Position numbers and translations under genes: made by a program
Notes under the pieces: model-generated
Told to the model about the DNA's origin: nothing
What the model saw: only the letters and a program-made list of their open reading frames with translations
Databases searched by the model: none
Shown here: positions 22,354 through 40,144 of the stretch, in pieces
How positions within the stretch are numbered: position 1 is the first letter of the stretch
Layout of the letters: each line of letters begins with the position of its first letter
Source of the DNA: an uncultured Hoeflea sp.
GTDB lineage: Bacteria; Pseudomonadota; Alphaproteobacteria; Rhizobiales; Rhizobiaceae
Reading direction: 5' to 3'
Length of the DNA stretch: 64,000 nucleotides
NCBI RefSeq assembly: GCF_947501405.1
Contig: NZ_CANMVK010000002.1
Span: 620,001-684,000, forward strand

Positions 22354-23115
22354 CTATCTCGACATCCAGCCGCCGTCAGCCGGCAGGATTGCGCCATGAA
22401 CGAACCTCGCCAGATCGCTGCACAGAAAGGCGATCGGCTCGGCGATTTCCTCAGGGGTTCCCCAACGGCCAACCGGAAGGCGCTCCATGAGAGAACGCGT
22501 GCGGTCCGGATCAGCCTGAAGAGCGGCAGTATTGTCTGTGGCGATGTAGCCCGGCGCTATGCCGTTTACATTGATGCCCTTGTCCGCCCATTCGTTGGAA
22601 AAAGCGCGAACCAATTGAGCAACCGCACCCTTGCTGGCCGTGTAGCCAGGCACATTGATGCCGCCCTGGAAACTCAAAACCGAGGCAACCAACACGATTT
22701 TCCCGCCCCCTTTTTTGAGCATGGAGCGCCCCACGGCCTGGGTCAGGATGAAGGGTGCATCGATATTGACGGCCTGAACATGATCCCAGTCCTCAAGTGA
22801 ATGTTTTGCCGCCGGCGCGCGCCTGATGGTGCCGGCATTGTTGACCAGAATGGAGATGTCGCCGCGCCTTTCCATGTCGTTGGCAAACGCGACAGTGGCA
22901 TCCCGGTTCGAGAAATCGCACTGGTATGCCATGAAGCTCCGACCCGCGGACCCAACAACTGTCTCCGCCTCACTGCCTTGGGCTTCCAGCGATGCGCTGG
23001 TGCCGATGATGTCAGCGCCCGCTTCCGCCAGCGTCTTGCAGATCGCCAAGCCGATGCCGCGTTTGCAACCGGTCACGAGAGCGGTTTGACCGGAAAGGTC
23101 TATTGCGAGGCCCAT
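22354..23115 (-). CDS. SDR family NAD(P)-dependent oxidoreductase
   Basis: A 253-residue classical short-chain dehydrogenase. The cofactor motif is TGCKRGIGLA at about 16-25, NNAGT follows near residue 92, the catalytic serine is in VASVLSFQG, and the YTASK motif holds the active tyrosine and lysine. Its similarity is greatest to sugar-acid reductases of the KduD/gluconate 5-dehydrogenase type, but substrate assignment is unsafe. It starts four bases after the stop of the E2 catalytic gene and is the last gene of the nine-gene leftward operon that begins with the regulator at 32904. Confidence 0.85.
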   Translation of the reverse strand: MGLAIDLSGQTALVTGCKRGIGLAICKTLAEAGADIIGTSASLEAQGSEAETVVGSAGRSFMAYQCDFSNRDATVAFANDMERRGDISILVNNAGTIRRAPAAKHSLEDWDHVQAVNIDAPFILTQAVGRSMLKKGGGKIVLVASVLSFQGGINVPGYTASKGAVAQLVRAFSNEWADKGINVNGIAPGYIATDNTAALQADPDRTRSLMERLPVGRWGTPEEIAEPIAFLCSDLARFVHGAILPADGGWMSR

Positions 23116-23119
23116 GGGA

Positions 23120-24019
23120 TCAAACCACCATTCTGCGAGGGTCGGTCAAAAGCTGTACGTAACGCGCCATGAAACGGGCGGCGTCGGCACCATTGATCAC
23201 ACGGTGGTCATAAGACAGATCCAAAGGTGTCATGGGCACCGGCATCCAGTTTTCATTTTCCCAGACCGGTACGATCTCGGTGCGGGTTATTCCCAGGATA
23301 GCCAGTTCGGGTGGATTAACGATCGGTGTGAAGGCCGTCCCCCCTATGCCTCCGAGGTTCGAGATCGACATCGAGGCACCGCCCATTTCATCAGGTCGGA
23401 TTTTGCGTGCCTGAGCGCGCCAGGCCAGGTCTGTGATGTTCGCCGCAATTTGCCACAGTCCCTTTTTGTCCGCGTCGCGAATGACCGGAACCATCAACCC
23501 ATACGGTGTGTCCACGGCAATTCCGATATGGACATAGTGCTTGAAGACAATCGTTGACCCATCCGAAGACAGCGAGGCATTGAAGCGCTGAAATTCCTGC
23601 AGGCAGATTGTCAGCGCCTTGACATGAAAGGCAAGCGCGGTGAGCCGCAGACCACGTCGATTGGCTTCAGCTTTCTGCGAGTTGCGGAAGGCTTCCAGCC
23701 TGCGCATGTCGGCCCGGTCATGATGGGTGACCTGCGGGATCATGCTGTCGGCGGCAGACAGGTTCGCGCTGGCCAGCTTGGCCATTCTGGAAAGCGGTTC
23801 CTCGCTGACCGGGCCGAAGGCCGCGTGATCCACATCCCAATACCGGTCCGGCGCGGGCATGGCTGATGCCGTGGGCGTTGTGCCATTCAGATGACTGTCG
23901 ACATCTTCCCGGGCCAAGCTCAGGCGGCCCGATTTTCGCGCGACTTCGGACAAATCAACCTGGTTTCGCCCGGCATAGGCAACCACAGACGGGCTTGCGA
24001 TATAGCTTTCGGTACTCAT
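23120..24019 (-). CDS. 2-oxoacid dehydrogenase acyltransferase (E2) catalytic protein lacking a lipoyl domain
   Basis: A 299-residue protein with a peripheral subunit-binding domain at about residues 6-42 (SPSVVAYAGRNQVDLSEVAR) and the E2 acyltransferase domain from about 75 to the end. The active-site histidine motif is SYDHRVINGADAARF, a form known from genuine pyruvate dehydrogenase E2 enzymes. A normal E2 starts with one to three lipoyl domains, but this one has none. The lipoyl domains are on the separate protein at 25465-26823. It lies one base after the semialdehyde dehydrogenase gene. It would transfer an acyl group to CoA if acylated lipoyl domains are presented in trans. Confidence 0.85.
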   Translation of the reverse strand: MSTESYIASPSVVAYAGRNQVDLSEVARKSGRLSLAREDVDSHLNGTTPTASAMPAPDRYWDVDHAAFGPVSEEPLSRMAKLASANLSAADSMIPQVTHHDRADMRRLEAFRNSQKAEANRRGLRLTALAFHVKALTICLQEFQRFNASLSSDGSTIVFKHYVHIGIAVDTPYGLMVPVIRDADKKGLWQIAANITDLAWRAQARKIRPDEMGGASMSISNLGGIGGTAFTPIVNPPELAILGITRTEIVPVWENENWMPVPMTPLDLSYDHRVINGADAARFMARYVQLLTDPRRMVV

Positions 24020-24020
24020 C

Positions 24021-25451
24021 TCACCACTCTGCCGAGATGTACTGGGTTTCCATGAATTCCTTCATGCCCTCATGCCCGCCTTCACGGCCCAGGCCCGATT
24101 GCTTGACCCCGCCAAACGGAGCTGCGGGATCGGACACGAGACCTCGATTGAGCCCGACCATGCCATATTCAAGGCGTTCGCAAACCCGCATGGCGCGCTT
24201 CATGTCCTCGGAAAACACATAGGCAACAAGCCCGTATTCCGTGTTGTTGGCCCGCTCAATGACATCTTCCTCGTCAACGAACGTCTGAAGCGCAGCGACT
24301 GGGCCGAATATCTCGTCATTTACGCAGTCTGAAGTCTCTGAAACATTTGACAGAACCGTCGGCGGATAGAAAAAGCCGATACCATCGGGGCGCGTACCAC
24401 CAAGCTCGACCCCGGCGCCTTTGGCCACCGCATCATCGACAAAGGCAGCAACCTTGTCGCGGGTGGCGGCATTGACCAAGGGCCCGACATCGACACTTTT
24501 GTCGATGCCGTTGCCGACCGTGAGCGCGGCCATCGCCTCGGTGAACCTGGAGGTGAAGGCTGGTGCCACTTTCTCATGGATATAGAACCGGTTTGCCGCT
24601 GTGCAGGCTTCACCAAGATTGCGCATCTTGGCCAGCATCGCGCCTTGAACGGCCTTGTCGATGTCCGCATCCTCAAACACGATCAGCGGCGCGTTTCCGC
24701 CAAGTTCCATGGCCGGTTTGAGAACCTGGTCTGCCGCTGAGTGCAACAACTTGCGGCCAACGTCAGTGGAGCCGGTAAACGAGATCACACGCACGCGTGG
24801 ATCGTGCAGCATGTGATCTACCAGCCTGCCGGATTTTCTTGAAGGCAGAACATTGACCAACCCTTTTGGAACCCCTGCTTCTTCCAGTATCGGCATCAAG
24901 GCCAGCATGGTCAGCGGCGTCTCGGACGCAGGCTTGATGATGACTGGACAACCAGCCGCGAGCGCTGGAGCTATCTTGCGAGTCCCCATGGCTGCCGGAT
25001 AGTTCCAGGGGGTTACCAGAACAGCAATACCCGCCGGCTTTTGCTGGACAATAATGCGCGCGCCGGAGGCGGGGGCATGAGTGATCAGACCATCGGCGCG
25101 CACTGCCTCTTCGGCAAACCAGCGGAAGAATTCTGCTGCATAGGTGGCTTCGCCCATGGCATCGGTATGGGCCTTGCCGTTTTCGAGTGTGATCAGGCGG
25201 GCAAAATCCTCGAGTCTTGCCGTCATGAGCGCCCATGCCTTGCGCAGGATCTCCGAGCGTTCGCGCGGCTTTCGCGCAGCCCAGTCCGAATAGGCCGCCT
25301 GGGCTGCATCCAGAGCTCTGTCACCATCTTCAATTTCGGCGGACGCGACGGATGCGAGGACCTCTTCCGAGGCTGGATTGATCACATTAAAGCGATCTCC
25401 TGACGCGCCATCGCACCATTCACCATTAATGTAGAGTTGTGTGTGTTCCAT
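24021..25451 (-). CDS. NAD(P)-dependent succinate-semialdehyde dehydrogenase-like aldehyde dehydrogenase
   Basis: A 476-residue aldehyde dehydrogenase of the GabD type. It has the base glutamate in MELGGNAPLIVFEDAD, the catalytic cysteine in GEACTAANRFY, and the GabD-like ending FGGVKQSGLGREGGHEGMKEF. It would oxidise succinate semialdehyde or a related omega-semialdehyde to the acid. It is placed between the two E2-type genes inside a 2-oxoacid dehydrogenase operon, which is unusual and suggests it works on an intermediate of the same pathway. It could also complete GABA breakdown from the island to the left, though no GABA transaminase is seen between them. Confidence 0.83.
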   Translation of the reverse strand: MEHTQLYINGEWCDGASGDRFNVINPASEEVLASVASAEIEDGDRALDAAQAAYSDWAARKPRERSEILRKAWALMTARLEDFARLITLENGKAHTDAMGEATYAAEFFRWFAEEAVRADGLITHAPASGARIIVQQKPAGIAVLVTPWNYPAAMGTRKIAPALAAGCPVIIKPASETPLTMLALMPILEEAGVPKGLVNVLPSRKSGRLVDHMLHDPRVRVISFTGSTDVGRKLLHSAADQVLKPAMELGGNAPLIVFEDADIDKAVQGAMLAKMRNLGEACTAANRFYIHEKVAPAFTSRFTEAMAALTVGNGIDKSVDVGPLVNAATRDKVAAFVDDAVAKGAGVELGGTRPDGIGFFYPPTVLSNVSETSDCVNDEIFGPVAALQTFVDEEDVIERANNTEYGLVAYVFSEDMKRAMRVCERLEYGMVGLNRGLVSDPAAPFGGVKQSGLGREGGHEGMKEFMETQYISAEW

Positions 25452-25464
25452 GGGGGACTCCCGG

Positions 25465-26823
25465 TCAGAGAATGTGGCGGAGCGGCTCTTGCAGGCGCTC
25501 TGCGAAATTGGTCAGGAACTGGATCGCTTCGCTTTCGGTCAATTGACCCGCCAGGAAGTCCAGTCCGAGGACATAGGAGGCCTCCTCCCGGCCTATGGTG
25601 AGGACCGGTGCTACACCGGCGGTCAATCTGACCGAGGTCAACAAGCTGCCGGTGAGATCGCGCATGATCAGATCTGCCACCGTCTCGGCGTCGATGGTCT
25701 CGGGTTGCGTCAGGCGCGTCTGATCGCAATTGGCATATTGCGTTTTTTGCAGGCTTGGGGTGCTGATCTCGATCACCAGCCGGTCAGATCCATGCTGCTT
25801 GGCATGTCGCAATGCGGCCGCGGCGAAGCGCAACCAAAGCTGGGCCGGTTGCAGTGCAATGTTGCCGTCCTCTGCAAACCAACGGATAAAGTCTTCGATA
25901 CCGTTGGCGGGAACACGGGCGGAGATGTGCAGCGGAGTGGTGTTGGCTGCGCTGCTGATACCGCTCTGTGCGGCAGGTGGAAGAGCACGCAGTGTTTCCA
26001 GATCAGAGACATGATAGGGCTGGGCAGCGCTCTGTTTGGCCAGCCGGGAGAGGTCAAGACCTTGCTCACGTGCAAGACGCCGTGCTTTGGGTGAAGCCAG
26101 AACGCGACCACCTGGAACAATCGATGCTACTCTGGCCGCTGTTTCCGGAGCTTCTTGTATGGCGGGTTTCGGGTTCGCCTTTACAGGCGCGGCGATCACG
26201 GCTTGAGAGCCTGGGTTCCCCGTTTGATGTTGCTCGGATGCAAAGCTGCGTGAAACCGTGCTTGTCGGTGGTTCTGCGGAGATGACGGCGATGGTAGCGC
26301 CAACCGGCACGGCTTCCTGAGCTTCAGCCAGAACAGCTGCGACATAGCCATCATGACCGGCTTCGACCTCCATGACCGATTTGTCGGTTTCCACTTCCAG
26401 AAGAATATCATCGGCCGAAACCGGATCTCCGGGAGCTTTGTGCCACACAACGATCAAGCCCGTGTCCTGTGTCATGCCCAAAGCGGGCATGATGACGGAT
26501 GCTCCCTCGGGCAGGTCGTCGCTTGGCGTGGTTTGTTCATTCTGGCTTGGTTTCGAATGTGCCGGGACCGCATTGTTGCCGGCGGCATTTTCAGAAATCC
26601 TGGCGACTGCTTGTCCCACAGGCACGTCTTCGCCGGCGCCAGCCAGAATGTCGGTCAGAAAACCGTCGGCCTGGGCTTCCACTTCTATGGTCGCCTTGTC
26701 GGTTTCGACTTCCATTATGGCTTCGCCAATCCTGACCGGGTCGCCGGAGTTCTTCAGCCAGGAGACGATCTTGCCGGTATCCTGGGCCATCCCCAAGGCG
26801 GGCATGATGATGTCATGCGGCAT
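25465..26823 (-). CDS. E2-like protein with two lipoyl domains and a degenerate acyltransferase domain
   Basis: A 452-residue protein with two N-terminal lipoyl domains, each with a lipoylatable lysine: K43 in EVETDKATIEVEA and K148 in EVETDKSVMEVEA. A peripheral subunit-binding domain follows near 245-280 (VLASPKARRLAREQGLDL). The C-terminal 150 residues look like a shortened E2 core, but the DHRxxxG active-site motif is absent. It may supply the swinging arms while the protein at 23120-24019 supplies catalysis. The ATG at 26823 lies inside the end of the E1 beta gene (11-base overlap). A longer in-frame extension upstream is the antisense-like part and was not used. Confidence 0.85.
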   Translation of the reverse strand: MPHDIIMPALGMAQDTGKIVSWLKNSGDPVRIGEAIMEVETDKATIEVEAQADGFLTDILAGAGEDVPVGQAVARISENAAGNNAVPAHSKPSQNEQTTPSDDLPEGASVIMPALGMTQDTGLIVVWHKAPGDPVSADDILLEVETDKSVMEVEAGHDGYVAAVLAEAQEAVPVGATIAVISAEPPTSTVSRSFASEQHQTGNPGSQAVIAAPVKANPKPAIQEAPETAARVASIVPGGRVLASPKARRLAREQGLDLSRLAKQSAAQPYHVSDLETLRALPPAAQSGISSAANTTPLHISARVPANGIEDFIRWFAEDGNIALQPAQLWLRFAAAALRHAKQHGSDRLVIEISTPSLQKTQYANCDQTRLTQPETIDAETVADLIMRDLTGSLLTSVRLTAGVAPVLTIGREEASYVLGLDFLAGQLTESEAIQFLTNFAERLQEPLRHIL

Positions 26824-27808
26824 GAAACAAGTCTCCGCGGATTGCCAGCCGTGCCCGTTCCGCCACTGTCTGTTCGGTTGGCACCGTGACGTCTTCCAGT
26901 GCAGGCGAGAAAGGCACCGGCACGTCCATTGCGCCCATGCGCTGAACTGGTGCATCGAGATGGTAGAAGGCCTTTTCGGAGATGCGGCTGGCGATTTCAC
27001 CGGTGATGCCATAGCTCTGGTGGCCCTCATCGATGACGATGGCACGCGAAGTCTTGCGCACGGATTTCAATATGGTGTCCTCGTCCAGCGGCACGATCGT
27101 ACGCGGATCGATCACTTCGGCGGACATGCCCTCGGCAGCAAGAATGTCGGCAGCCTTCAACGCCACCTGCACCATCGAAGACGTCGCAACCAGGGTGATA
27201 TCGGTGCCTTCGCGCAGCACATTGGCGACGCCGAAGGGGATGAAATACTCCTCCTCCGGCACCGGCGCCTTGTCCTGGTACATCAGCTTGTCCTCGAAGA
27301 TGACCACCGGATTGTTGTCGCGGATGGCAGTCTTCATCAGGCCCTTTGCCTCATAGGCTGATGAGGGCATGGCGACCTTGAGGCCGGGGATATGCGCCAC
27401 GAGGGCATGCAGCGATTGGGAGTGCTGGGCGGCGGAGCGGCGGGTAGCACCTAGGTTTGTGCGCAGCACCAGCGGCACGTTCAGTTTGCCGCCGGACATG
27501 TAATGGGTCTTGGCAGCCTGGTTGCAGAGCTGGTCCATGACCAGGTAAAGGAAATCGCCGAACATGAGATCGACAATCGGGCGGCTACCGGTCATCGCAG
27601 CCCCGACGGCGATCCCCATGAAGCCTGGCTCGGCGATCGGTGTATCAATGATCCGCTCGGTGCCGAACTCTTCGACGAGCCCGGATAGAACCTTGAAAGG
27701 CGTGCCAGCTTCAGCCACATCCTCGCCAATGACAAAGATCGACGGATCACGCCGCATTTCTTCGGCAATAGCCTCGTTGACGGCTTTTGAGAGTGTGATC
27801 TCACGCAT
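26813..27808 (-). CDS. 2-oxoacid dehydrogenase E1 component, beta subunit
   Basis: A 331-residue transketolase-like beta subunit of a thiamine-diphosphate-dependent E1, as in pyruvate, acetoin and branched-chain 2-oxoacid dehydrogenases. Typical segments are FVIGEDVAEAGTPFKV, DTPIAEPGFMGIAVGAAMTG, GATRRSAAQHSQSLHAL and the C-terminal IDPRTIVPLDEDTI. It is 12 bases downstream of the alpha subunit gene, and its 3' end overlaps the lipoyl-protein gene. With E1 alpha it decarboxylates a 2-oxoacid (or cleaves acetoin) and acylates the lipoyl arm. The particular substrate cannot be read from the sequence. Confidence 0.92.
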   Translation of the reverse strand: MREITLSKAVNEAIAEEMRRDPSIFVIGEDVAEAGTPFKVLSGLVEEFGTERIIDTPIAEPGFMGIAVGAAMTGSRPIVDLMFGDFLYLVMDQLCNQAAKTHYMSGGKLNVPLVLRTNLGATRRSAAQHSQSLHALVAHIPGLKVAMPSSAYEAKGLMKTAIRDNNPVVIFEDKLMYQDKAPVPEEEYFIPFGVANVLREGTDITLVATSSMVQVALKAADILAAEGMSAEVIDPRTIVPLDEDTILKSVRKTSRAIVIDEGHQSYGITGEIASRISEKAFYHLDAPVQRMGAMDVPVPFSPALEDVTVPTEQTVAERARLAIRGDLFHAA

Positions 27809-27820
27809 CGTAGACTCCTG

Positions 27821-28816
27821 CTAGGCGGCACTGGAAGCGAACACATGCATGTCCACTTCGTTGACGGAGGGGTAGGCCGCTTTTTCCGCATAGGCGACGG
27901 CTTCTTCCGCCTGGGCCTTGATGTCTTTGTTGATGCTGACCAGCTCATCGTTCGTGACAATCTTCTGGTCTTCGAGCCATTTGCCGAAATTTGCGATGGG
28001 ATCGCGGTTCGACTTCCATTCGGCCTCTTCATCCTTGGGCCGGTAATACTCGCGATTGATATCTCCGACGTGATGGCCGTGGTATCGATAGGTCATCAAT
28101 TCAATGAAAAAGGGGCCTTCACCCTTACGTGCGCGGGCTACCAGATCGGTTGCCAGCTTGTTGACGGCGAGCACATCCTGGCCATCGACCTGGTGGCTTT
28201 CGATACCAAATGCTTCCGCACGAGCCGTGATGGAGCCGGCGGCGATTTCATCGGTCCGCGTATATTCGCTATAGCCGTTGTTTTCGCACGCATAGATGAC
28301 TGGCAGCCTCCACAACGCGGCCATATTCATGACTTCGTACATAAGGCCTTGTGCGGTGGCTCCGTCGCCGAAAAAGCAGACTGTGACGTCGGTCTTGCCG
28401 AGGCGCCTGGCGGAAAGCGCCGCACCTGTTGCAATGCCCATCGAACCGCCGACAATGGCATTGGCTCCCAGGTTTCCATTGGCCTGATCGGCAATGTGCA
28501 TAGAGCCGCCCTTGCCACGGCAATAGCCCTCTTCCTTGCCCAGCAATTCGCAGAACATTTCCTTGAAGTTGGCCCCCTTGGCAACGCAATGGCCGTGGCC
28601 GCGATGTGTGGAGGTGATCTTGTCATCACAGGTGAGGGCTTCACAAATGCCAACCGCAACCGCTTCCTGACCCGAATACATATGGGTCAGGCCAGGCATT
28701 TTCGCTGACAGATAGAGTTGATTGGCATTGTCTTCAAACGCCCGGATACGCACCATCTGCCGGTACATTCTGAGATAGTCGTCGCGGTTCGAATTGGCTT
28801 TTTTGGCAGCGCTCAT
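27821..28816 (-). CDS. 2-oxoacid dehydrogenase E1 component, alpha subunit
   Basis: A 331-residue E1 alpha subunit. The thiamine diphosphate motif runs from GDGATAQGLMYEVMNMA to ENNGYSEYT, and the phosphorylation-loop region reads MTYRYHGHHVGD. The length and the separate alpha and beta genes fit the pyruvate/acetoin (AcoA/PdhA) class rather than the fused AceE type. GGAG precedes the ATG at 28816. No dihydrolipoamide dehydrogenase (E3) is encoded in the window, so that subunit must be shared with another complex. Confidence 0.92.
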   Translation of the reverse strand: MSAAKKANSNRDDYLRMYRQMVRIRAFEDNANQLYLSAKMPGLTHMYSGQEAVAVGICEALTCDDKITSTHRGHGHCVAKGANFKEMFCELLGKEEGYCRGKGGSMHIADQANGNLGANAIVGGSMGIATGAALSARRLGKTDVTVCFFGDGATAQGLMYEVMNMAALWRLPVIYACENNGYSEYTRTDEIAAGSITARAEAFGIESHQVDGQDVLAVNKLATDLVARARKGEGPFFIELMTYRYHGHHVGDINREYYRPKDEEAEWKSNRDPIANFGKWLEDQKIVTNDELVSINKDIKAQAEEAVAYAEKAAYPSVNEVDMHVFASSAA

Positions 28817-28877: not shown

Positions 28878-30182
28878 TCAGTAGCGGTTGGCGATTGGTA
28901 GCTCTTCCGCCGGGAACAGACTGATGACGCGGCAGCCGGTATCGGTGACCACCACTTCCTCTTCAATCCGCGCAGCGGAGTAGCCGTCGGAAGCAGGGCA
29001 GTAGGTCTCCAGCGCAAAGACCATTCCGGTCTGGATTTCCATTGGATTGTCGAAGCTGACTGCGCGGCTGATGATTGGCCGCTCGTGCAGGGCAAGTCCG
29101 AGACCATGGCCGAACTGCAGACCAAAGGCGGCGAGCTCGTTGGGGAAGCCGAGGCTCTCCGCAGACGGCCAGACCGCAGCGATCTTGTCGGTGGTTACGC
29201 CGGGCTTGATCAGCGCTATGGCCGCATCAAGCCACTCCCGTGCCCTGATATAGGCATCGTTCTGCGACGGCGTCGCGCGACCAATGTTGAAGGTGCGGTA
29301 GTAGCAGGTCCGGTAGCCCTGATAGCTCTGCAGGATGTCGAAAAAGGCCTGATCGCCTGGTCTGAACAACCGGTCGGTAAAATTGTGCGGATGCGGGTTG
29401 CAGCGTTCGCCGGATATGGCGTTGATCGCTTCAACATCGTCCGAACCCATTTCGTAAAGCAACTTGTTGGACATCGCGACAATGTCGTTCTCGCGGATGC
29501 CAGGCTTCAACTCCTCCCAGATCATGTGATAGACGCCGTCGACCATGGAAGCTGCCTGGTTGAGCAGGTGGATCTCGTCGACATTCTTGATCTCTCGCGC
29601 CGACAGCATAATCTGCTGGCCATCGACCACGTTGACCCCGGCAGCCTGCAGCGCGAAGAACATGGCTGTCTCTGCATAATCGACACCGACCGGCATGTCG
29701 GCGACGCCGGCGCGCTTGAGCAGACCGTAAATCTCCTCGGCGTAGCGTTTCATCAGCCCGAACGAGGGAGGGATGGTGCCGCGCATGCCGACGACGCCGG
29801 CAAGCATACGGTCGGGATCAAGCCAGTCGCAGTACTCCTTGTGGTGTACTGCGGCGGAGCCGAAATCCCAGACATAGGGTTCTTCGTCGCCTGCAAGCAG
29901 GCAGAAACGGCACATCTTGTCCCGTTCCCACTCGCCGATTTTGGTGCCCGAGACATAGCGAATGTTGTTGACGTCGAACATCAGCAGCGCGCCGCACTCC
30001 GATTTCTTCAGTGCGTCCTTGGCGCGGCTGAGCCGGTAGCGGCGCAGCCGGTCATGGTCGACCCGGCGCTCGAAATCCACGGCGGTGTGGCCGAGGGCGG
30101 GAAGATGCTTGTCCCAGCGCCAGTTCGGGTCGATGTCGCCCGGCTGCAGGATACGGGGATTGAGGGCCGTTGTGTGAGCCAT
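28878..30182 (-). CDS. M24 (creatinase/prolidase-fold) family protein with an altered metal site
   Basis: A 434-residue protein with the creatinase N-terminal domain and a C-terminal pita-bread domain. Prolidases have five metal ligands; here D282, H359 (QFGHGLGLALHE), E392 (ALETY) and E407 (RIEEEV) align, but the second aspartate of the usual D-x-(S/T)-R-T motif is replaced by C293 in TCYYRTF. The fold also hosts non-peptidases, including creatinase, ectoine hydrolase and the DMSP lyase DddP, to which the N-terminal part is loosely similar. GGAGG lies before the ATG at 30182. It is in the same leftward operon as the E1/E2 genes. Function is unknown. Confidence 0.72.
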   Translation of the reverse strand: MAHTTALNPRILQPGDIDPNWRWDKHLPALGHTAVDFERRVDHDRLRRYRLSRAKDALKKSECGALLMFDVNNIRYVSGTKIGEWERDKMCRFCLLAGDEEPYVWDFGSAAVHHKEYCDWLDPDRMLAGVVGMRGTIPPSFGLMKRYAEEIYGLLKRAGVADMPVGVDYAETAMFFALQAAGVNVVDGQQIMLSAREIKNVDEIHLLNQAASMVDGVYHMIWEELKPGIRENDIVAMSNKLLYEMGSDDVEAINAISGERCNPHPHNFTDRLFRPGDQAFFDILQSYQGYRTCYYRTFNIGRATPSQNDAYIRAREWLDAAIALIKPGVTTDKIAAVWPSAESLGFPNELAAFGLQFGHGLGLALHERPIISRAVSFDNPMEIQTGMVFALETYCPASDGYSAARIEEEVVVTDTGCRVISLFPAEELPIANRY

Positions 30183-32904: not shown

Positions 32905-32958
32905 GTTGACCTCCAGGCAAAATGTTCAATTTGAGAGACTTCGGACAGCCTCAAGAAA

Positions 32959-32990
32959 TCCAATATGAACATAAAAATTCTCATTCTGGA
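32959..32990. promoter_or_regulatory. Candidate operator: imperfect palindrome in the divergent promoter
   Basis: TCCAATATGAA at 32959-32969 faces the near-inverse CTCATTCTGGA at 32980-32990 (8 of 11 positions symmetric), in the AT-rich 225-base gap between the regulator gene and the ABC binding-protein gene. It is the best visible binding site for the fused regulator. Confidence 0.4.
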
Positions 32991-33129
32991 TATAATTTGG
33001 ACTCTTTCATCCATCGCGTATCGTCATTGTTGTCTGGATCACCCGAGCAATTGGGTGACAGCCTTGGTTGGGAGTGGCCGGGGCGATAAGGAGACAACAC
33101 GAGGGCATTCGCGCCCGGGAGGAAAAACC

Positions 33130-34089
33130 ATGAAATTACGCAACATTTTGGTTGCCACAACAGCAATCGCAGCCGCTTCTATTGCCGGCTCCGCTGCAGC
33201 TGCCGACAAAATGAAAATCGGCATCACGCAAAACAATGTCGGCGTCGACAGCTATCAGACGACCTATGACAAGTCCTTCAAGGAGGCTGTTGAAGCGAAC
33301 GACAATGTGGAAGCGGTCGTTCTCGATGCCGGCGGCGACGTTGCCCGCCAGATCGCCCAGATCGAGGATTTGATCCAGCAGCAGGTGCAGGCCATTATCA
33401 TCTGGCCAACCAATGGCGAGGCCGTTATTCCGGCCGTCCGGAAGGCCCACAAAGCGGGCATTCCGGTGATTGTGACCAACTCCAATATTGCCGAAGCAGG
33501 CTTCGAATTCGTCAAGTCCTTCTCGGGGCCGGACAACATCACACAGGGCTCGCGCTCGGCGGAAATCATGTGCGACAAGTTCAAGGAAATGGGCATCGAG
33601 ACCACTGCTCAGGTTGTGCAGATCTCTGGTCAACCCGGCTACACCACCGCGATCGAACGTCAGAAAGGCTTCGATGATCGTCTTCCGGAGGTCTGCCCGG
33701 ATGTGACCATTGTTGAAACTCAGCCCGGGGATTGGAACCGCGAAAAATCTCAGAAGGTGATGGAGGCGTTCCTCGTCAAGTATGACAAGATCGATGGCGT
33801 CTATTCAGGTGACGACAACATGGGTGTCGGAGCGCTCAATGCTGCCAAGGCAGCCGGACGCGACGGTATCATCTTCGTTGGCGCCACCAATTTCGCCGTC
33901 GGATATGAAGCGATGGAAAAAGGTGAATACTGGGGCTCGATCTACCAGTCTCCGGTCGATGATGCCAAGGCGGCGCTGAAAACGGCCATCGATGTGCTGG
34001 AAGGCAAGGAACTGCCGTTCCTCAACTACTTCGACACACCGAAGATCACTCAGGACAACATGTCCGATTTCACAAAGCCGGTTTTCTGA
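33130..34089 (+). CDS. Sugar ABC transporter substrate-binding protein (RbsB-like)
   Basis: A 319-residue periplasmic binding protein of the ribose/galactose (Peripla_BP_4) class. The signal peptide is MKLRNILVATTAIAAASIAG with cleavage near AAAA-DK at about 25. Typical segments are QIEDLIQQQVQAIIIWPTNG, GIPVIVTNSNI and GVYSGDDNMGVGAL. I placed the start at 33130 because GGGAGGAAAAACC precedes it and the signal peptide begins there; the longer frame from 32965 lacks both. It is the first gene of the rightward operon. A sugar, polyol or similar small hydroxylated ligand is expected. Confidence 0.9.
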   Translation: MKLRNILVATTAIAAASIAGSAAAADKMKIGITQNNVGVDSYQTTYDKSFKEAVEANDNVEAVVLDAGGDVARQIAQIEDLIQQQVQAIIIWPTNGEAVIPAVRKAHKAGIPVIVTNSNIAEAGFEFVKSFSGPDNITQGSRSAEIMCDKFKEMGIETTAQVVQISGQPGYTTAIERQKGFDDRLPEVCPDVTIVETQPGDWNREKSQKVMEAFLVKYDKIDGVYSGDDNMGVGALNAAKAAGRDGIIFVGATNFAVGYEAMEKGEYWGSIYQSPVDDAKAALKTAIDVLEGKELPFLNYFDTPKITQDNMSDFTKPVF

Positions 34090-34133: not shown

Positions 34134-34175
34134 GGGCCGATCTGCTGATTTTGCCATGTGGCCGGGGAGGTGAAC

Positions 34176-34973
34176 ATGGGCCGGTTACCTGGACGCTCCT
34201 GCATCGTGACCGGAGCCGCTCGCGGCATTGGCCGAGCCATCGGCGAAGCCCTGCTGAGGGAGGGTGCCGATGTTTGCTTTGCAGATATCGATGCAGACAA
34301 GGTCGGCGAGGTTGCAGCTCTTAACGAGGCGGTCGCTGCAGCCGCAGGCGGTAAGGTGACGCATGTTTGCGTTGATGTAACCGATCGGGTGCAAGTCCGC
34401 GCGATGATTGCGCACGCGGTATCCGTCTTCGGAAAGATCGATGTCAAATTCAACAACGCCGGCGTAAATCGGCCGATGAACTTTCTCGATATCACGGAAG
34501 ACAACTGGAACTTCATTATGGGTGTGAATGGTCTTGGCTGCCTGATTGGCATGCAGGAGACGGCGCGCCAGATGATTGCCCAGGGCACCGGCGGCAAGAT
34601 TATCAATACCGCATCGATTGCTTCTCGTCAGGGATTCGACAACGTCGCACCTTATTGTGCGAGCAAATTTGCGGTCGTATCCCTGACCCAGTCGGGCGCG
34701 CGCGATCTCGCAAAGCATAACATCACGGTGACCGGTTTTGCTCCGGGCGTCGTCGCGACAGAAATGTGGGAACAGGTCGATCAGGATCTCATGGAGATTG
34801 GCGCCGCGGAGCGTCCGGGACAGGCAATGGAGGATTTTGCCGCCGGGATTCTAAAGGGCCGTGTCGCAACACCGCGCGACATTACCGGTACCACGACGTT
34901 CCTGGCTTCGGCTGACAGTGATTACATGACCGGCCAGATCGTCATGATTGATGGCGGGATGGTTCTGGTCTGA
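34176..34973 (+). CDS. SDR family oxidoreductase
   Basis: A 265-residue classical short-chain dehydrogenase with cofactor motif TGAARGIGRA, NNAGV, catalytic serine in TASIASRQG and the YCASK pair. It is a paralogue of the SDR at 30259-31068. I chose ATG 34176 because GGGGAGGTGAAC lies directly before it; an in-frame ATG six codons earlier lacks such a site. Its place between the ABC binding-protein and permease genes suggests that it oxidises the imported substrate, as polyol or sugar dehydrogenases in such operons do. Confidence 0.87.
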   Translation: MGRLPGRSCIVTGAARGIGRAIGEALLREGADVCFADIDADKVGEVAALNEAVAAAAGGKVTHVCVDVTDRVQVRAMIAHAVSVFGKIDVKFNNAGVNRPMNFLDITEDNWNFIMGVNGLGCLIGMQETARQMIAQGTGGKIINTASIASRQGFDNVAPYCASKFAVVSLTQSGARDLAKHNITVTGFAPGVVATEMWEQVDQDLMEIGAAERPGQAMEDFAAGILKGRVATPRDITGTTTFLASADSDYMTGQIVMIDGGMVLV

Positions 34974-34991
34974 ACAGGGTGCTGTTTTGAC

Positions 34992-35014: not shown

Positions 35015-35041
35015 CAGATTTCGAATGGGAGGCAGGAAACG

Positions 35042-36019
35042 ATGGCTGGTGGTTTCACCAAATCGGATATTGGCGGGCTTCTTGCCAAGCAGGGCATTCT
35101 GATTGCTTTCGTCATTTTCATGATCGGCTTCACGGTCGCCAACGAGCGTTTCCTGGCGCCTGAAAACATCATGGGAGTGGTGCGCTCCTCTGCGATTCTC
35201 GGCGTCATGGCACTCGGTGTCACCTTTGTGGTGATCAGTGGCAATCTGGATCTGTCAGTCGGGTCGATGATGTCGTTCTCGACGATTGTCGTGCTGGACC
35301 TGCATGACAAGATTGGTCCCGAGCTGGCCATTCCCGCCATGTTTGCGATGACTCTTTGCCTGGGTGCCTTTATCGGGTTCCTGGTTGGCTATCTCAAGCT
35401 CAATTCGCTGATCGTGACGCTTGGCATGTTATCCGCCATTCACGGGCTTACTCTGACTTATTCCGGCGGCAAGAACATGGATATCGCCAACAAGGGCGAA
35501 ACCTGGTTTGCGGTCTTTGGGCAGGGGAGTTTTTTGGGGATTCCCGTGCCGATCCTGATCTTCGGATTGTTGGCGGCGCTGCTCGGGATGGTGCTTGGAA
35601 AGACGCCTTTCGGCCGAAAGGTCTATGCGGTTGGCGGCAATGGTGTGGCGGCGACCTTCTCGGGCATTCCAAGGGCCAGGGTCGTGTTCACCTGTTATCT
35701 GCTGTCTTCCTTGTGTGTTGCCACTGCGGGCCTCATTCAGGCCAGCCGGAGCATGGGAAGCCAAAACACGGTGGGCCAAGGGCTGGAGCTCGAGGTCCTG
35801 GCTGCTGTCATTCTCGGTGGTGCATCGCTGCTCGGCGGCTCCGGCACGATCTTCAAGACCATTATCGGTGTGTTGATCCTTGGCTTCATACAGAACGGCC
35901 TGCTGCTCGTCGGGCTGCAGTTTTACGCACAGTATGTGGTCACCTGGGTCATCATCATTCTGGCGGTTTGGCTCGATATTGCGGCCAAGCGCGGCCGCTT
36001 GTTGTCACCGATCGCGTGA
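35042..36019 (+). CDS. Sugar ABC transporter permease (RbsC-like), first copy
   Basis: A 325-residue inner-membrane permease of the ribose/xylose (BPD_transp_2) class, with about eight to ten hydrophobic segments. Hallmarks are VVISGNLDLSVGSMMSFS and AAVILGGASLLGGSGTIFKT. GGGAGGCAGG stands before the ATG. It lies ten bases before a second, different permease gene, so the channel is probably a heterodimer, whereas RbsC itself is a homodimer. Confidence 0.92.
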   Translation: MAGGFTKSDIGGLLAKQGILIAFVIFMIGFTVANERFLAPENIMGVVRSSAILGVMALGVTFVVISGNLDLSVGSMMSFSTIVVLDLHDKIGPELAIPAMFAMTLCLGAFIGFLVGYLKLNSLIVTLGMLSAIHGLTLTYSGGKNMDIANKGETWFAVFGQGSFLGIPVPILIFGLLAALLGMVLGKTPFGRKVYAVGGNGVAATFSGIPRARVVFTCYLLSSLCVATAGLIQASRSMGSQNTVGQGLELEVLAAVILGGASLLGGSGTIFKTIIGVLILGFIQNGLLLVGLQFYAQYVVTWVIIILAVWLDIAAKRGRLLSPIA

Positions 36020-36029
36020 GGACGGCTTG

Positions 36030-37031
36030 ATGCAAAACGAAACCCGCACCAGACTGATCAAGAAGGGCGCCATTTGGGGCTTCATCCTGTTCGAGCTCGC
36101 GTTCTTCTCGATCGCCGGGAGTTACCTTTCGCTGTCCGAAAGCGCCTTCATGGATGTCGACAACATGTTGTTGTTGCTCAAACAGTCGGCGCCGATCGGC
36201 ATTATCGCGCTGGGTATGACGATCATCATGATCAACGGCAACATCGACCTGAGCGTTGGGGCAACCTATGCACTCGCGGCAATCGTGATGCTGGACAGCA
36301 TGACTTGGCCGGTCTTTGCCGGGCTCGGTGACTGGGTGATCCCTGTATCCTGGATTCTGGCTCTCCTAACCGGTGTGGTGCTTGGTGCAGTCAACGGCCT
36401 CATTGTCTGGAAAACCGGTGTCGATGCCTTCATCGTTACCCTGGGATCGATGCTTGGCTACCGTGGGCTGGTGTTCATGTACAACGGCGAGGAGCCGACG
36501 TCGCAGCTCAACTGGACCCTGGTCGATTTCGCCGAAGCCCAGTTCCTGGGCCTGCACACGGCAACCTGGTTCCTGCTGGCGGTCGCTATAGGTCTGTGGT
36601 TCGTGATGAACCGAACGGTTCATGGCCGCAATGCCTATGCCATTGGCGACAATCGGGAGGCCGCGGTCAATGCGGGCATTCGTGTCGGACCGCACATGAT
36701 GATCAATTTCATGCTGATCGGGTTTCTGGCCGCTCTCTCCGCAGCCGTGTTCTATTCCGAAAGCGGGTCGGTCAATCCCAATGATGGCGAACTGTTCGAA
36801 CTCTGGGCCATCACCGCCGTGGTGCTTGGCGGCACCAAACTGACCGGCGGATCCGGGTCGATTGTCTCCACGCTTGGCGGCGTCATTGCCATTCAGCTCT
36901 TGCGCAAGGGGTTGGGCTACATTGGTGCCGGTACCGAGACGGTCAATCTTGTCATCGGCCTGATCCTGATCGCGGTGTTGTTCCTCGATCGCCAACTCAA
37001 CATCAAGGCCAAGGGGGAGTTGAAGGTATGA
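36030..37031 (+). CDS. Sugar ABC transporter permease (RbsC-like), second copy
   Basis: A 333-residue permease of the same family, with the matching landmarks IMINGNIDLSVGATYALA and TAVVLGGTKLTGGSGSIVST. It overlaps the ATPase gene by four bases (ATGA). I chose ATG 36030 since it lies just after the preceding stop; the longer frame from 35880 would overlap the first permease gene. With that protein it forms the membrane part of the importer. Confidence 0.92.
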   Translation: MQNETRTRLIKKGAIWGFILFELAFFSIAGSYLSLSESAFMDVDNMLLLLKQSAPIGIIALGMTIIMINGNIDLSVGATYALAAIVMLDSMTWPVFAGLGDWVIPVSWILALLTGVVLGAVNGLIVWKTGVDAFIVTLGSMLGYRGLVFMYNGEEPTSQLNWTLVDFAEAQFLGLHTATWFLLAVAIGLWFVMNRTVHGRNAYAIGDNREAAVNAGIRVGPHMMINFMLIGFLAALSAAVFYSESGSVNPNDGELFELWAITAVVLGGTKLTGGSGSIVSTLGGVIAIQLLRKGLGYIGAGTETVNLVIGLILIAVLFLDRQLNIKAKGELKV

Positions 37032-38557
37032 GCAAACAAGCTTCTCAACCGGTGCCTGCGCTTCGGCTTGAAGATATCGTCAAGACCTTCCCTGGCGTGC
37101 GCGCACTCGACGGTGTGTCGTTTGACGTCATGCCAGGCGAGGTACACGCCCTGATGGGAGAAAACGGCGCTGGCAAGTCGACGTTGATGAAGGTTCTTGG
37201 CGGCATCCATCAGCCTGACAGCGGCCGGATCATTGTCAATGAAACCCCAGTAAGGATGGGCTCGCCGCTCGAGGCCAAGCACAAGGGCATTGTCTTCATT
37301 CATCAGGAACTCAGTCTGGCCGAGGAACTGACGGTTGCCGAAAACATCTATCTGGGTGAATTGCCGCGCAAGCGCTTTGGTGTGGTGGATTGGCAATCCC
37401 TGTTCGAAAAGACCAACCGGATTTTGCAGCGTCTCAAGGTTGGTTTCGATGCCAAGACCCAGGTTGGGGATCTGTCGATCGCCAACCAGCAGATGGTGGA
37501 GATTGCTCGCGCACTTACCCATGAAGCCAAGGCAGTGATCTTCGATGAACCGACGGCATCACTTACCGATGCCGAGAAAGTGGTTCTGTTCGAGGTGGTC
37601 GAAGATCTCAAATCCCATGGTGTCGGTATCATCTACATCTCGCACCGGATGGAAGAAATCTTCAAGATCACCGATCGCATTTCGGTTCTGCGTGACGGCC
37701 AGTACCGCGGCACCCTGGAAACCGCAAAGACGAGCGAGGAAGACGTCACCCAATTGATGATCGGGCGCAAGCTTGATCTGACCCGCCACGTCAAAGACCA
37801 TGAATTTGGCGATGTCGCACTTGAGGTGAAAGGGCTTTCCTGCGGGACGCTCTACCGGGATGTCAATTTCAATGTCCGCGAGGGGGAAGTGGTCGGCTTC
37901 TATGGGCTTGTCGGGGCCGGGCGCACCGAAATCGCCGAAACCCTGTTTGGTCTGCGAACGCCGACCGGTGGCAGCATCCTGTTGGAAGGTCAGCAGGTGG
38001 AAATCACCTCTCCGGTGGATGCGATCAGTCTTGGGATCTCGCTGGTGCCGGAAAACAGAAAAGAACAGGGACTCGTCCTGGGCATGAACTGCCGGGATAA
38101 CATGACACTGCCGCAAGTGGGAGATTTGACCGCGGGTCCCTTTGTGTCGGACGGCGCGGAGATAGCGATCTTCGACCTTTACCACGACAAGCTGGAGATC
38201 AAGACCCCAAGCTGGAAGCAACTGGCGGGCAATCTTTCGGGAGGCAATCAGCAGAAGATCGTCATCGGCAAATGGCTGTCCATGCATCCAAAGGTGCTTA
38301 TCGTGGACGAACCAACCCGTGGAATCGATGTCGGTTCCAAGTCTGAAATCCACAGACTCATCCGGGACCTCGCTTCGCAAGGCTACGCCGTTGTCGTGAT
38401 TTCATCCGAAATGCCGGAAGTGCTGCATGTTTCGGACCGCATCGTGGCGATGTACAGCGGGCGGATCATGCGCGAGTTCACCTCGGAAGAGGTCACCGAA
38501 GACAGCCTGATCCAGGCGATTTCGGGCATCGTCGCAAGTGACGAGAAGGCCGCTTGA
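37028..38557 (+). CDS. Sugar ABC transporter ATP-binding protein (RbsA-like, two nucleotide-binding domains)
   Basis: A 509-residue tandem ATPase. Domain one has Walker A GENGAGKSTL, signature LSIANQQMVEIARAL and Walker B VIFDEPTASLT. Domain two has the degenerate Walker A GLVGAGRTE, normal for this family, and the signature LSGGNQQKIVIGKWL. It energises import through the two permeases. The start overlaps the permease stop, and the stop lies one base before the next gene, so the operon is tightly packed. Confidence 0.94.
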   Translation: MSKQASQPVPALRLEDIVKTFPGVRALDGVSFDVMPGEVHALMGENGAGKSTLMKVLGGIHQPDSGRIIVNETPVRMGSPLEAKHKGIVFIHQELSLAEELTVAENIYLGELPRKRFGVVDWQSLFEKTNRILQRLKVGFDAKTQVGDLSIANQQMVEIARALTHEAKAVIFDEPTASLTDAEKVVLFEVVEDLKSHGVGIIYISHRMEEIFKITDRISVLRDGQYRGTLETAKTSEEDVTQLMIGRKLDLTRHVKDHEFGDVALEVKGLSCGTLYRDVNFNVREGEVVGFYGLVGAGRTEIAETLFGLRTPTGGSILLEGQQVEITSPVDAISLGISLVPENRKEQGLVLGMNCRDNMTLPQVGDLTAGPFVSDGAEIAIFDLYHDKLEIKTPSWKQLAGNLSGGNQQKIVIGKWLSMHPKVLIVDEPTRGIDVGSKSEIHRLIRDLASQGYAVVVISSEMPEVLHVSDRIVAMYSGRIMREFTSEEVTEDSLIQAISGIVASDEKAA

Positions 38558-38558
38558 G

Positions 38559-39431
38559 ATGAAAATCGGCTTCGCCGGATTAGGGCGGATGGGACGTCGA
38601 ATGGCCGCAAATTGCGTTCGCGCCGGCCATGAAGTAACCGTCTGGAACCGCAGCCTCGATCCTATCGATACCTTTCTAAAGGCCTATGAGGCGAAAGCCG
38701 CCGAAGTCCCTGGCCAGCTGGCTTCCGGGTGCGAAACCGTTCTCACCATGCTCGCCAATGACGATGCAGCCTACGCCGTCTATCTCGGGCCAAAGGGTTT
38801 GATACAAAGCCCTGGTGCAAAGCTGTTGGTCGAGATGGGTACAATGAGTCCGGGTCTCGTTCAGGAGTTGTCGAGTGCCGCAGCCGCTGCGGGTAAAGTC
38901 TTTGTTGATGCGCCGGTTTCCGGCGCCACGCAGGCTGCCGAAGATGCGCAATTGTTGATCATGGCGGGATGCGAGCAGGATGCTCATCCGTCGCTTGCCG
39001 ATGTGTTCGGATCAATAGGCCGCAAGACAATCTGGCTTGGTTCAGTTGGTGCGGGCGCTGTCATGAAGTTGGCTGTCAACATGCTGGTCCACGGACTCAA
39101 CCAGACCGTCTCCGAGGCTCTGACCCTGGCAGGCAGAGCCGGCATAAGCGAAAGCGACGCTTTCGATGTCATTGAAAACTCAGCCGCGGCAGCACCGATG
39201 CTTGGTTACAGGCGCGCTCACTATCTCAAGGAGGCCGATCAGGACGTCTCCTTCACCATCGACCTTGCAAGAAAGGATGTGACACTGGCGTTGGCCCTGG
39301 CTGACGAACTCGGTGTCAACATGCCACAGACCCAAACCACCTTGGATGTTCTCAAGATGGCGCAGAACGACGGCTACGGCCAACGCGATATGGCCTCGGT
39401 TTTCGCATTCATGAAAGGACAAGCACGATGA
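38559..39431 (+). CDS. Beta-hydroxyacid dehydrogenase family protein (3-hydroxyisobutyrate dehydrogenase-like)
   Basis: A 290-residue NAD(P)-dependent dehydrogenase with the N-terminal motif GFAGLGRMGRRMA, the substrate-binding VDAPVSGATQAAED and the catalytic lysine region GAVMKLAVNMLVH. Members oxidise 3-hydroxyisobutyrate, tartronate semialdehyde, 6-phosphogluconate-like acids and related beta-hydroxyacids. ATG 38559 follows the ATPase stop by one base. Within this operon it probably acts on an acid formed from the imported compound, which the 2-oxoacid dehydrogenase encoded divergently may later decarboxylate (inference). Confidence 0.85.
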   Translation: MKIGFAGLGRMGRRMAANCVRAGHEVTVWNRSLDPIDTFLKAYEAKAAEVPGQLASGCETVLTMLANDDAAYAVYLGPKGLIQSPGAKLLVEMGTMSPGLVQELSSAAAAAGKVFVDAPVSGATQAAEDAQLLIMAGCEQDAHPSLADVFGSIGRKTIWLGSVGAGAVMKLAVNMLVHGLNQTVSEALTLAGRAGISESDAFDVIENSAAAAPMLGYRRAHYLKEADQDVSFTIDLARKDVTLALALADELGVNMPQTQTTLDVLKMAQNDGYGQRDMASVFAFMKGQAR

Positions 39432-40144
39432 AAGCGGCTCTATTCGTTGGCGGCTGGGAGGGGCACACCCCAACCGATTTCGGGGATTGGTGCGAAGCCC
39501 TTTTGAAACAGCAAGGTTTCGAGGTGACCACCCACAACACGCTTGCACCGCTGGCCAATCCATCGGCAATGGCCGATGTCGATCTGATCGTTCCGATATG
39601 GTCAAGCGCGCGGTCTTCGCATCAGGATGAGTTTGGCAACATCACCCGGGAGGAAGAGCTCGGCCTGCTGAAACTGATTGCGGATGGATGCGGGATCGCA
39701 GGCTGGCACGGCCATATGGGCGATGCGTTTCGCGACCATCCGAGTTATCATTTCATGCTTGGCGGGCAGTTTGTTGCTCATCCACCGGGGTGGCCGGACA
39801 ACCCGGTGCCATCGGATGATTTCATAGACTACGACGTCACAATTACCCGGCCCGATGATCCGATCGTCAGAGGCATCAAGAGCTTCAAATTGCATTCGGA
39901 GCAATATTACATGCTGGTCGATCCATCCAACGAAGTGTTGGCAACCACAACCTTTTCGGGCGATCATCTGTGGTGGATTGAGGGCACCGTCATCCCTGTG
40001 GTCTGGAAGCGTCGTTGGGACAAGGGCCGGGTGTTTTATTGTTCGATAGGGCACACGCTTGATGATCTGAAAGTGCCGCAGGTGACGGAAATCATCAGGC
40101 GCGGCATGCTTTGGGCCGCAAGGGAGGCCGGGGCGTCAAGCTAG
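39428..40144 (+). CDS. ThuA-like domain protein
   Basis: A 238-residue protein of the ThuA family (glutamine-amidotransferase-like fold), named for trehalose/maltose utilisation in rhizobia but of no settled biochemical function. Typical pieces are the opening ALFVGGWEGHTPTDF, GIAGWHGHMGDAFRDHPSYH and SEQYYMLVDPSNEVL. The start overlaps the preceding gene by four bases (ATGA). It closes the seven-gene rightward operon and is followed by a good terminator. Confidence 0.88.
   Translation: MKAALFVGGWEGHTPTDFGDWCEALLKQQGFEVTTHNTLAPLANPSAMADVDLIVPIWSSARSSHQDEFGNITREEELGLLKLIADGCGIAGWHGHMGDAFRDHPSYHFMLGGQFVAHPPGWPDNPVPSDDFIDYDVTITRPDDPIVRGIKSFKLHSEQYYMLVDPSNEVLATTTFSGDHLWWIEGTVIPVVWKRRWDKGRVFYCSIGHTLDDLKVPQVTEIIRRGMLWAAREAGASS

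Follow-up and report, generated by a model that had tools for sequence, protein, structure and literature searches.

The window analysed here, a stretch of 64,000 nucleotides from the 4.45-Mb genome of an uncultured Hoeflea sp. (contig NZ_CANMVK010000002.1, positions 620,001 to 684,000), holds sixteen genes in two divergent halves, nine leftward (22354-32904) and seven rightward (33130-40144), and the start codons of the regulator and of the solute-binding protein (SBP) lie 225 bp apart on a shared divergent promoter. It is somewhat more likely than not that these genes form a polyol catabolic regulon (we put the probability at about 0.55), and within that reading the odds are about even that the polyol is a cyclic one (a cyclitol). 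A polyol is favoured because the sensor domain of the regulator is nearest to the structure 5iai and related to 4rya, which is listed as a sorbitol-binding protein, and a diol or acyloin is favoured because two short-chain dehydrogenases/reductases (SDRx and SDRy, paralogues of 46% identity) both have an acetoin-reductase model as their top match, with scores under its cut-off. A cyclitol is suggested because in an AT-rich clade the module is nested among iolE and iolB-, iolC-, aldolase- and Gfo/Idh-like genes, and a carbocyclic polyol because sister clusters carry genes for Gfo/Idh, zinc alcohol dehydrogenases (ADHs), an intradiol dioxygenase and an iron ADH (locus L254). The first-pass annotation of the window had placed nine genes to the left and seven to the right of a 225-base promoter, and all of them were found in place. 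Its remark that gene spacing is mostly under 80 bases also holds, since 13 of the 14 within-arm junctions are shorter than that (-11, -4, -4, 1, 1, 4, 10, 12, 13, 18, 61, 68, 76 and 83 bp, the last becoming 86 bp when counted from the ATG at 34176). The rightward order that it listed has to be corrected to SBP, SDR, permease, permease, ATPase, beta-hydroxyacid dehydrogenase (HIBD) and ThuA. It had matched the set to no textbook operon, and our search of the open-access literature, by titles and abstract openings, returned no description of such a cluster, of its regulator or of a bacterial split E2.

The shared promoter contains 19-bp palindromes (AATATCCAtnaTGGATATT). A palindromic motif obtained by expectation maximization from 51 promoters (that of the window and 50 others) reads AATATCCATnATGGATATT and carries 22 bits. 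The best site reached at least 15 bits in all 51 promoters (4 of 1020 shuffles), and the two top sites were exactly 21 bp apart, that is two helical turns, in 40 of the 51 (7 of 1020 shuffles). Outside this training set, the top site reached 15 bits or more in 11 of 12 loci that have an alternative transporter (L044, L045, L051, L059, L104, L111, L115, L117, L159, L170 and L173), and L053 and L055, the regulators of which are 36-37% identical to that of the window, had sites of 19.6 and 19.5 bits. Of 11 loci with sister regulators of 31-44% identity, seven (L252, L253, L254, L256, L259, L260 and L261) had a site of 20 bits or more; ten of the 11 come from genomes lacking the M24-fold enzyme of the cluster (hereafter M24), and L260 comes from genome G210, which has M24 elsewhere. 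In L252, L254 and L261 the site is intergenic, with the regulator/HIBD pair on one side and the facing operon on the other. The negative control consisted of 16 genomes in which M24 stands in other contexts; five of them have a strong regulator (at least 768 bits). Just upstream of M24, sites of 12-19 bits were present in three of these five (L134, and L126 and L131 with near-identical sites). In the remaining 11 genomes, which lack a strong regulator (one has a 107-bit match only), no site exceeded 5.2 bits in the 600 bp upstream of M24. One further site, of 18.1 bits, lies close to the contig end in L061. A scan for further regulon members with the exact motif core matched in one of 15 genomes, at its own cluster, and was uninformative because most sites depart from the exact core. 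By this comparison, both arms share one promoter with paired operator-like palindromes, which recur wherever the winged helix-SBP type of regulator was examined, apart from the exceptions given below. The co-regulation of the two arms that the first-pass annotation had assumed thus gains support from a feature that it had not noticed.

Residues 1-200 of the regulator have no Pfam match and are followed by an SBP_bac_1 domain (SBP_bac_1/SBP_bac_8 in Pfam). The structural model (mean pLDDT 78.6) contains a helix-helix-helix-strand-strand arrangement at 70-133 and the SBP fold from 196 on. The top Foldseek match was 5iai (TM to target 0.91, 26% identity), which we take to be a ribitol-bound protein, with trehalose/maltose binders next, and the profile of the sensor domain scored 169 bits on 5iai, 134 on 1eu8 (trehalose/maltose), 102 on 6dtq (maltose) and 95 on 4rya. 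The sensor domain is compatible with a polyol ligand. SgrR-type regulators likewise consist of a winged helix-turn-helix fused to an SBP fold, but their sensor is SBP_bac_5, whereas the domain here is of the SBP_bac_1/CUT1 kind, near 5iai and a sorbitol-type binder, and the protein was therefore not assigned to the SgrR family. Among 297 genomes of the family, regulators of at least 764 bits occurred in 17, and every one of these was among the 19 genomes that carry M24 (Fisher p 9e-26); the cut of 764 bits was chosen after the scores had been seen, and the regulators of G160 and G275 score high as rows of the search alignment. Without these two genomes p was 6e-22, and at E<=1e-120, which gave regulators in 28 genomes of which 17 had M24, it was 2e-18. 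Regulators of 489-669 bits were present in 11 family genomes without M24. Since the module is accompanied more consistently by the regulator and its palindrome than by any single transporter, it is suggested that the regulator senses a shared early compound.

The scan of named genomes gave at least 552 relatives of M24, of which the best 80 were typed with 10-kb flanks that often end near HIBD and ThuA. In a check of synteny that had been proposed with the first-pass annotation, the regulator and SBP genes were divergent in 50 of these 80 loci, so the arrangement is not specific to this strain: 39 were full (type A), 8 had a swapped block (type B) and 3 were cut. The other 30 loci comprised 8 with an alternative Rbs cassette (type D), 10 with a window-type E1 without the divergent pair (type C, some on short contigs), 5 with another E1 and 7 others. 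In the 50 divergent loci, M24, SDRx, rbsC1 and rbsC2 were found in all, rbsA in 49, SDRy (>70% identity) in 38, E1 alpha, E1 beta and the lipoyl protein in 39, the aldehyde dehydrogenase (ALDH) in 38, the E2 core in 36, and HIBD and ThuA in at least 22 each, the flank frequently stopping there. A KduD-like gene (>50% identity) was present in 6 of the 50, in 5 of the 39 full loci and in 7 of 15 other family loci (L038-L052). The E1/E2/ALDH block was exchanged in 9 of the 80 loci (8 typed and L155, which is cut) and also in L050, its place being taken by two SDRs and an FMN-dependent 2-hydroxyacid dehydrogenase (family assigned from L152), a homologue of which was found in 10 of 10 swapped loci (L155 and L050 included) and in 0 of 39 type-A loci. 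Beyond the named loci, M24 (E<=1e-60) was present in 19 of 297 family genomes, 16 of them with at least 79% identity, and in 16 of 385 class genomes, the genome of the window being counted in each case. Two Phaeobacter plasmids (L077, 60.9 kb, and L078, 82 kb) carry 15 of the 16 genes and lpdA, the KduD-like gene being absent; the 82-kb plasmid was typed as conjugative and the 60.9-kb one as non-mobilizable. Judging from these loci, the gene set is real and widely shared among bacteria, and the E1/E2 block and the KduD-like gene are replaceable or accessory. Of the single pathway of sixteen genes supposed by the first-pass annotation, therefore, the conserved neighbourhood stands and the fixed membership does not.

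The E1 pair is of the pyruvate dehydrogenase (PDH)/acetoin-dehydrogenase type, and four further E1-alpha homologues of 28-44% identity are encoded in the genome, so the E1 of the cluster looks like part of a dedicated complex. The lipoyl protein of the first-pass annotation does have lipoyl domains, two of them, and in addition an E3-binding domain and a core that resembles an acyltransferase but lacks the catalytic motif; AlphaFold2 modelled the C-terminal part as an E2 core of reduced length (whole-chain mean pLDDT 76), and the Foldseek matches of the model were E2 cores. In its 54 window-type homologues two lipoyl motifs were found in 37 and one in 17, and the DHR motif in none. The protein named E2 core is indeed an acyltransferase core, one that carries no lipoyl domain: DHRxx[ND]G was present in 42 of 43 orthologues and the lipoyl motif E[TS]DK in 0 of 43, extended frames included. 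Since the E2 core begins 0-30 bp past the ALDH gene in 42 of 42 loci, no room is left for a lipoyl domain on it. The lipoyl domains and the active acyltransferase thus sit on separate chains. Ordinary lipoyl-E2 chains were found in five other M24 clusters (L052, L053, L055, L060 and L063). In the eukaryotic PDH complex, one chain with a catalytic core is accompanied by the E3-binding protein (E3BP), a chain with a dead core that bears lipoyl domains and an E3-binding domain. The lipoyl protein resembles E3BP in all three parts, but in the window the catalytic chain lacks a lipoyl domain and the pair is bacterial and dedicated to a catabolic cluster. Another known system, AcoABC with AcoD and 2,3-butanediol dehydrogenase, cleaves an acyloin to acyl-CoA, the aldehyde being oxidised by AcoD. 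The components of an acetoin dehydrogenase (small alpha/beta E1, lipoyl protein, E2 core and ALDH) are all present in the window together with a butanediol-dehydrogenase-like SDR in the operon, whereas the two-chain E2, the sugar-type ATP-binding cassette (ABC) importer, the M24 enzyme and the regulator set it apart. The 2-oxoacid decarboxylation of the first-pass annotation is not established by an E1 pair of this type; we infer that acyloin cleavage would fit this type of E1, the SDRs and the ALDH at least as well.

By profile, M24 matched best to 4s00/4rzy (130 bits over nearly the full length), which is listed as Peptidase M24 and which we take to be DddP, a dimethylsulfoniopropionate (DMSP) lyase. 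These are its closest solved relatives. Asp295, Asp297 and Asp307 of 4s00/4rzy fall at the positions numbered for DddP in the accessible text of PMC4108388, where the metal ligands are given as Asp295, Asp297, Asp307, His371, Glu406 and Glu421. Four of the six are kept in M24 (D282, H359, E392 and E407), the position of Asp307 is occupied by Cys293, and Asp297 has no counterpart. The cysteine was conserved in 36 of 36 sequences, namely the window and 35 relatives down to 36% identity. Given the changed ligands and a score of 110.7 bits against the cut-off of 600 of NCBIfam NF043017, DMSP lyase was rejected as the function of M24.

The inositol connection comes from a one-genus family of AT-rich genomes of about 1.4 Mb, presumably HIMB59/AEGEAN-169, of which 52 genomes, many of them incomplete, were available and 29 had an M24 match. 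One strand there carries SDRx-M24-E1a-E1b-ALDH-Gfo/Idh-IolC-IolB-aldolase-GalM, and the module has as its neighbours an SDR-IolE pair, the alternative Rbs cassette and a regulator with 32-33% identity. In L064, IolE exceeded its NCBIfam cut-off (393/290); IolC fell slightly short of its own (298/300), IolB clearly so (158/205), and the aldolase stayed below those of all models. Between the E1b and ALDH genes there is a free protein with one lipoyl domain (L064:7080-7410), and the cluster of this clade gave no match to an E2 core. In 19 loci of these genomes, which are closely related and not independent, all sites of at least 11 bits were at the promoters of SDRx (19 of 19), SBP/regulator (16 of the 16 loci containing it) or iolE, the last in 9 of 10 loci reaching that spot as reckoned from coordinates, with 10.0 bits in the tenth (L067). 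Shuffled L064 gave 0.08 matches of at least 15 bits and 0.48 of at least 11 bits per 20 kb. Two stretches around IolD had best motif scores of 13.7 and 10.6 bits. The module of this clade resembles myo-inositol catabolism in its nesting among iol-like genes and in the palindrome upstream of iolE, whereas the window cluster has no iol genes, iolD and iolE included, and is not an iol operon; in the genome of the window IolD is at C1:995410 and a below-cut-off IolE-like match at C1:993156, and the cluster itself is on C2. Nor do the IolE matches of alternative-transporter genomes, which lie elsewhere, support a proof of inositol by proximity. A simple reading of M24 or E1 as a replacement of IolD was rejected, as IolD is over its cut-off in 18 of 32 mixed genomes and in 25 of the 28 HIMB59-like genomes with M24 that were queried (a 29th, with a partial M24, was left out). 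As IolD is encoded elsewhere, the module appears to be an addition to the inositol pathway in the AT-rich clade and not a replacement.

Sister regulators of L252, L253 and L254, with the same palindrome, are encoded next to HIBD and opposite an operon, which in L254 comprises genes for a Zn-ADH, a Gfo/Idh/MocA protein, a Zn-ADH, a PRISE-like protein, an intradiol ring-cleavage dioxygenase and an Fe-ADH; the first three genes also occur in L252, and the scan of the last three covered L254 alone. The gene content of L254 is suggestive of a route from a cyclitol to a hydroxyquinol-type compound. In the sister clusters of L256 and L261 the palindromes reach 25 and 29 bits, and the genes include a KduD-like SDR, another SDR with 56-57% identity to SDRy and a transporter of the Rbs type.

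In the polyol reading, the polyol would be brought in by the Rbs-type ABC transporter, and the cytosolic regulator would bind it, or an early intermediate, in the CUT1-type domain and act on both arms via the palindromes. Oxidation of vicinal hydroxyls by SDRy and SDRx would then give an acyloin or dione, at which M24, a DddP relative with an altered metal site, would hydrolyse or eliminate. The dedicated E1 alpha/beta complex, with its split lipoyl carrier and acyltransferase core, would cleave the product to an acyl-CoA, and ALDH would oxidise the aldehyde co-product. In other lineages the two SDRs and the FMN-dependent 2-hydroxyacid dehydrogenase would take over from the E1/E2/ALDH block. 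This sequence of SDR oxidation, M24 step and cleavage is the most likely mechanism, each catalytic step of which we infer. A more specific version is tentative: a cyclitol route not described before, in which the SDRs would form a cyclic dione, the Cys-variant M24 would open or cleave it and a split-E2 acyloin-type dehydrogenase would follow, all under a broad and likewise undescribed family of cytosolic polyol sensors (winged helix with a CUT1 binding-protein fold) with one alphaproteobacterial operator code, the sister clusters maybe passing through a hydroxyquinol-like aromatic.

Several findings weigh against the polyol and cyclitol interpretation. In the sensor comparison, the trehalose/maltose binders 1eu8 and 6dtq score above 4rya, and 2ioy, the top PDB match of the RbsB-like SBP, is labelled sugar-binding. 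The presence of IolD elsewhere in the HIMB59-like genomes belongs here as well; the place of the module in the AT-rich iol operon could be packaging, and neither in the genome of the window nor in the alternative-transporter genomes examined does the M24 cluster lie beside iol genes. The word inositol occurs 0 times in the accessible text of the AEGEAN-169 genome paper (PMC10308909). Clusters of type C add to the M24-E1-lipoyl core a Liv-type binding protein, MaiA-like glutathione S-transferases (GSTs) and FrsA-like or alpha/beta hydrolases (each checked in one to four loci), and M24 relatives carried by plasmids of actinobacteria and haloarchaea (L079-L083; identity about 35-63%) have, variously, HIBD-like, succinate-semialdehyde dehydrogenase, E1, LLM flavin enzyme or RidA genes as neighbours. 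Both the Liv-type clusters with GST- and FrsA-like genes and the plasmid loci with LLM or RidA suggest that M24-E1 modules act on diverse substrates. As to the operators, the motif was fitted to 51 related promoters, so that the fair tests are the loci outside training. Among these, L116, a cut locus, has a best site of 12.8 bits, the sister loci L255, L257, L258 and L262 (4 of 11) have no strong site, L102 and L127 have no site by M24 with a regulator in the genome, and in L065, whose genome lacks the regulator, a 15.7-bit site falls within an open reading frame away from M24. In the window itself palindrome 2 is weak, the exact motif core is absent from the genome, and a promoter scan gave no sigma-70-like promoter.

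The substrate could also be an acyclic sugar alcohol or sugar acid, which the SDRs and HIBD would convert to a 2-oxoacid for an ordinary 2-oxoacid dehydrogenase, the inositol link of the HIMB59-like genomes being incidental. We hold this to be doubtful, although E1 alpha is nearest to PDH-type models and structures, HIBD scores best on the tartronate-semialdehyde reductase model and then on those of 3-hydroxyisobutyrate dehydrogenase (HIBADH) and L-threonate dehydrogenase (all below cut-off), the FMN-dependent enzyme of the swapped block would yield a 2-oxoacid, and the SBP relatives 5hko and 4rs3 are, as we take them to be, polyol-bound. Such a route leaves M24 unexplained, as well as the pairing of ALDH with E1 (ALDH above 60% identity in 50 of 56 loci with a window-type E1) and the occurrence of the same palindrome at the iolE promoter in 9 of 10 AT-rich loci. 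It is improbable that the cluster consists of independent modules (transporter with SDR; M24 with E1/E2 and ALDH; ThuA with HIBD) that share one class of inducer and no single linear pathway. Modules do recombine, as seen in the swapped block, the three transporter types and the M24-E1 loci without Rbs genes; nevertheless, SDRx, M24, the regulator, the SBP and both permeases are together in 50 of 50 divergent loci, and a high-scoring regulator and M24 co-occur in 17 of 17 genomes (with the post hoc cut and the two alignment rows noted above). Less likely still is that another factor, for example of the LacI or GntR type, binds the palindromes and the winged helix-SBP protein acts elsewhere. 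The motif is a plain palindrome, its binding by the regulator is proposed from comparison, and some loci with the regulator have no strong site. However, the motif tracks the regulator family across transporters, into the AT-rich clade (33% regulator identity) and in most sister loci, and in all 11 loci whose genomes have no strong regulator it is missing upstream of M24.

The features of the polyol regulon proposed here are collected in Table 1. With an Rbs-like SBP, two BPD_transp_2 permeases and a double-domain sugar ATPase, the transporter is an importer of the CUT2 (Rbs) type, and the PDB relatives of the SBP are 2ioy, 5hko and 4rs3. A ribose transporter was ruled out by score (RbsB NF007936 119 against 337 bits, RbsA NF008030 551 against 745 bits). 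Immediately beyond the regulon, at 42156-45569 of the window, lies an open reading frame of 1137 aa with eight stretches of RTX calcium-binding repeats.

Table 1. Genes and operator-like sites of the divergent cluster in window coordinates, with gene families assigned by Pfam/NCBIfam profiles.
Feature	Position	Strand	Score
KduD-like SDR, accessory	22354..23115	-	TIGR01832 293 bits, under cut-off 339
E2 acyltransferase core, catalytic motif kept, no lipoyl domain	23120..24019	-	PF00198 254 bits
Aldehyde dehydrogenase, succinate-semialdehyde type	24021..25451	-	TIGR01780 542 bits, under cut-off 646; Pfam Aldedh
Lipoyl protein: two lipoyl domains, E3-binding domain, degenerate acyltransferase-fold core	25465..26823	-	PF00364 x2, PF02817
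Thiamine pyrophosphate (TPP)-dependent E1 beta	26813..27808	-	NF006667 397.5 bits, over cut-off 321
TPP-dependent E1 alpha	27821..28816	-	TIGR03182 346 bits, under cut-off 394
M24-fold enzyme, DddP-related, Asp-to-Cys metal-ligand variant (C293)	28878..30182	-	PF00557 126 bits
SDRx, acetoin-reductase/2,3-butanediol-dehydrogenase-like SDR	30259..31068	-	TIGR02415 213 bits, under cut-off 304
Regulator: winged helix and CUT1-type solute-binding domain, presumably cytosolic	31087..32904	-	PF01547 101 bits
Operator-like palindrome 1, GAAATCCAATATGAACATA	32955..32973	.	19.5 bits
Operator-like palindrome 2, AATTCTCATTCTGGATATA	32976..32994	.	12.3 bits; 21 bp from palindrome 1
RbsB-like periplasmic binding protein (CUT2)	33130..34089	+	NF007936 119 bits, under cut-off 337
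SDRy, acetoin-reductase/L-iditol-dehydrogenase-like SDR	34176..34973	+	TIGR02415 245 bits (cut-off 304); NF005472 236 (338)
RbsC-like permease 1	35042..36019	+	PF02653 123 bits
RbsC-like permease 2	36030..37031	+	PF02653 141 bits
Double ATPase, sugar-importer type (AraG/RbsA-like)	37028..38557	+	NF008442 AraG 560 bits (cut-off 689); NF008030 RbsA 551 (745)
Beta-hydroxyacid dehydrogenase (HIBD), tartronate-semialdehyde-reductase/HIBADH-like	38559..39431	+	PF03446, PF14833; NF008592 174 bits, under cut-off 397
ThuA-domain protein	39428..40144	+	PF06283 143 bits

The palindrome suggests a family of regulators together with their regulons and makes the question of the substrate directly testable, with polyols and cyclitols as a short list of candidate ligands. 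Concrete predictions for biochemistry are the ligand change in M24 and the split E2. Copies of the cluster are found on plasmids and in alphaproteobacteria, many of which bear marine names. A streamlined clade, which we take to be an ocean lineage, has a version of it as well, so the substrate is probably a common dissolved compound.

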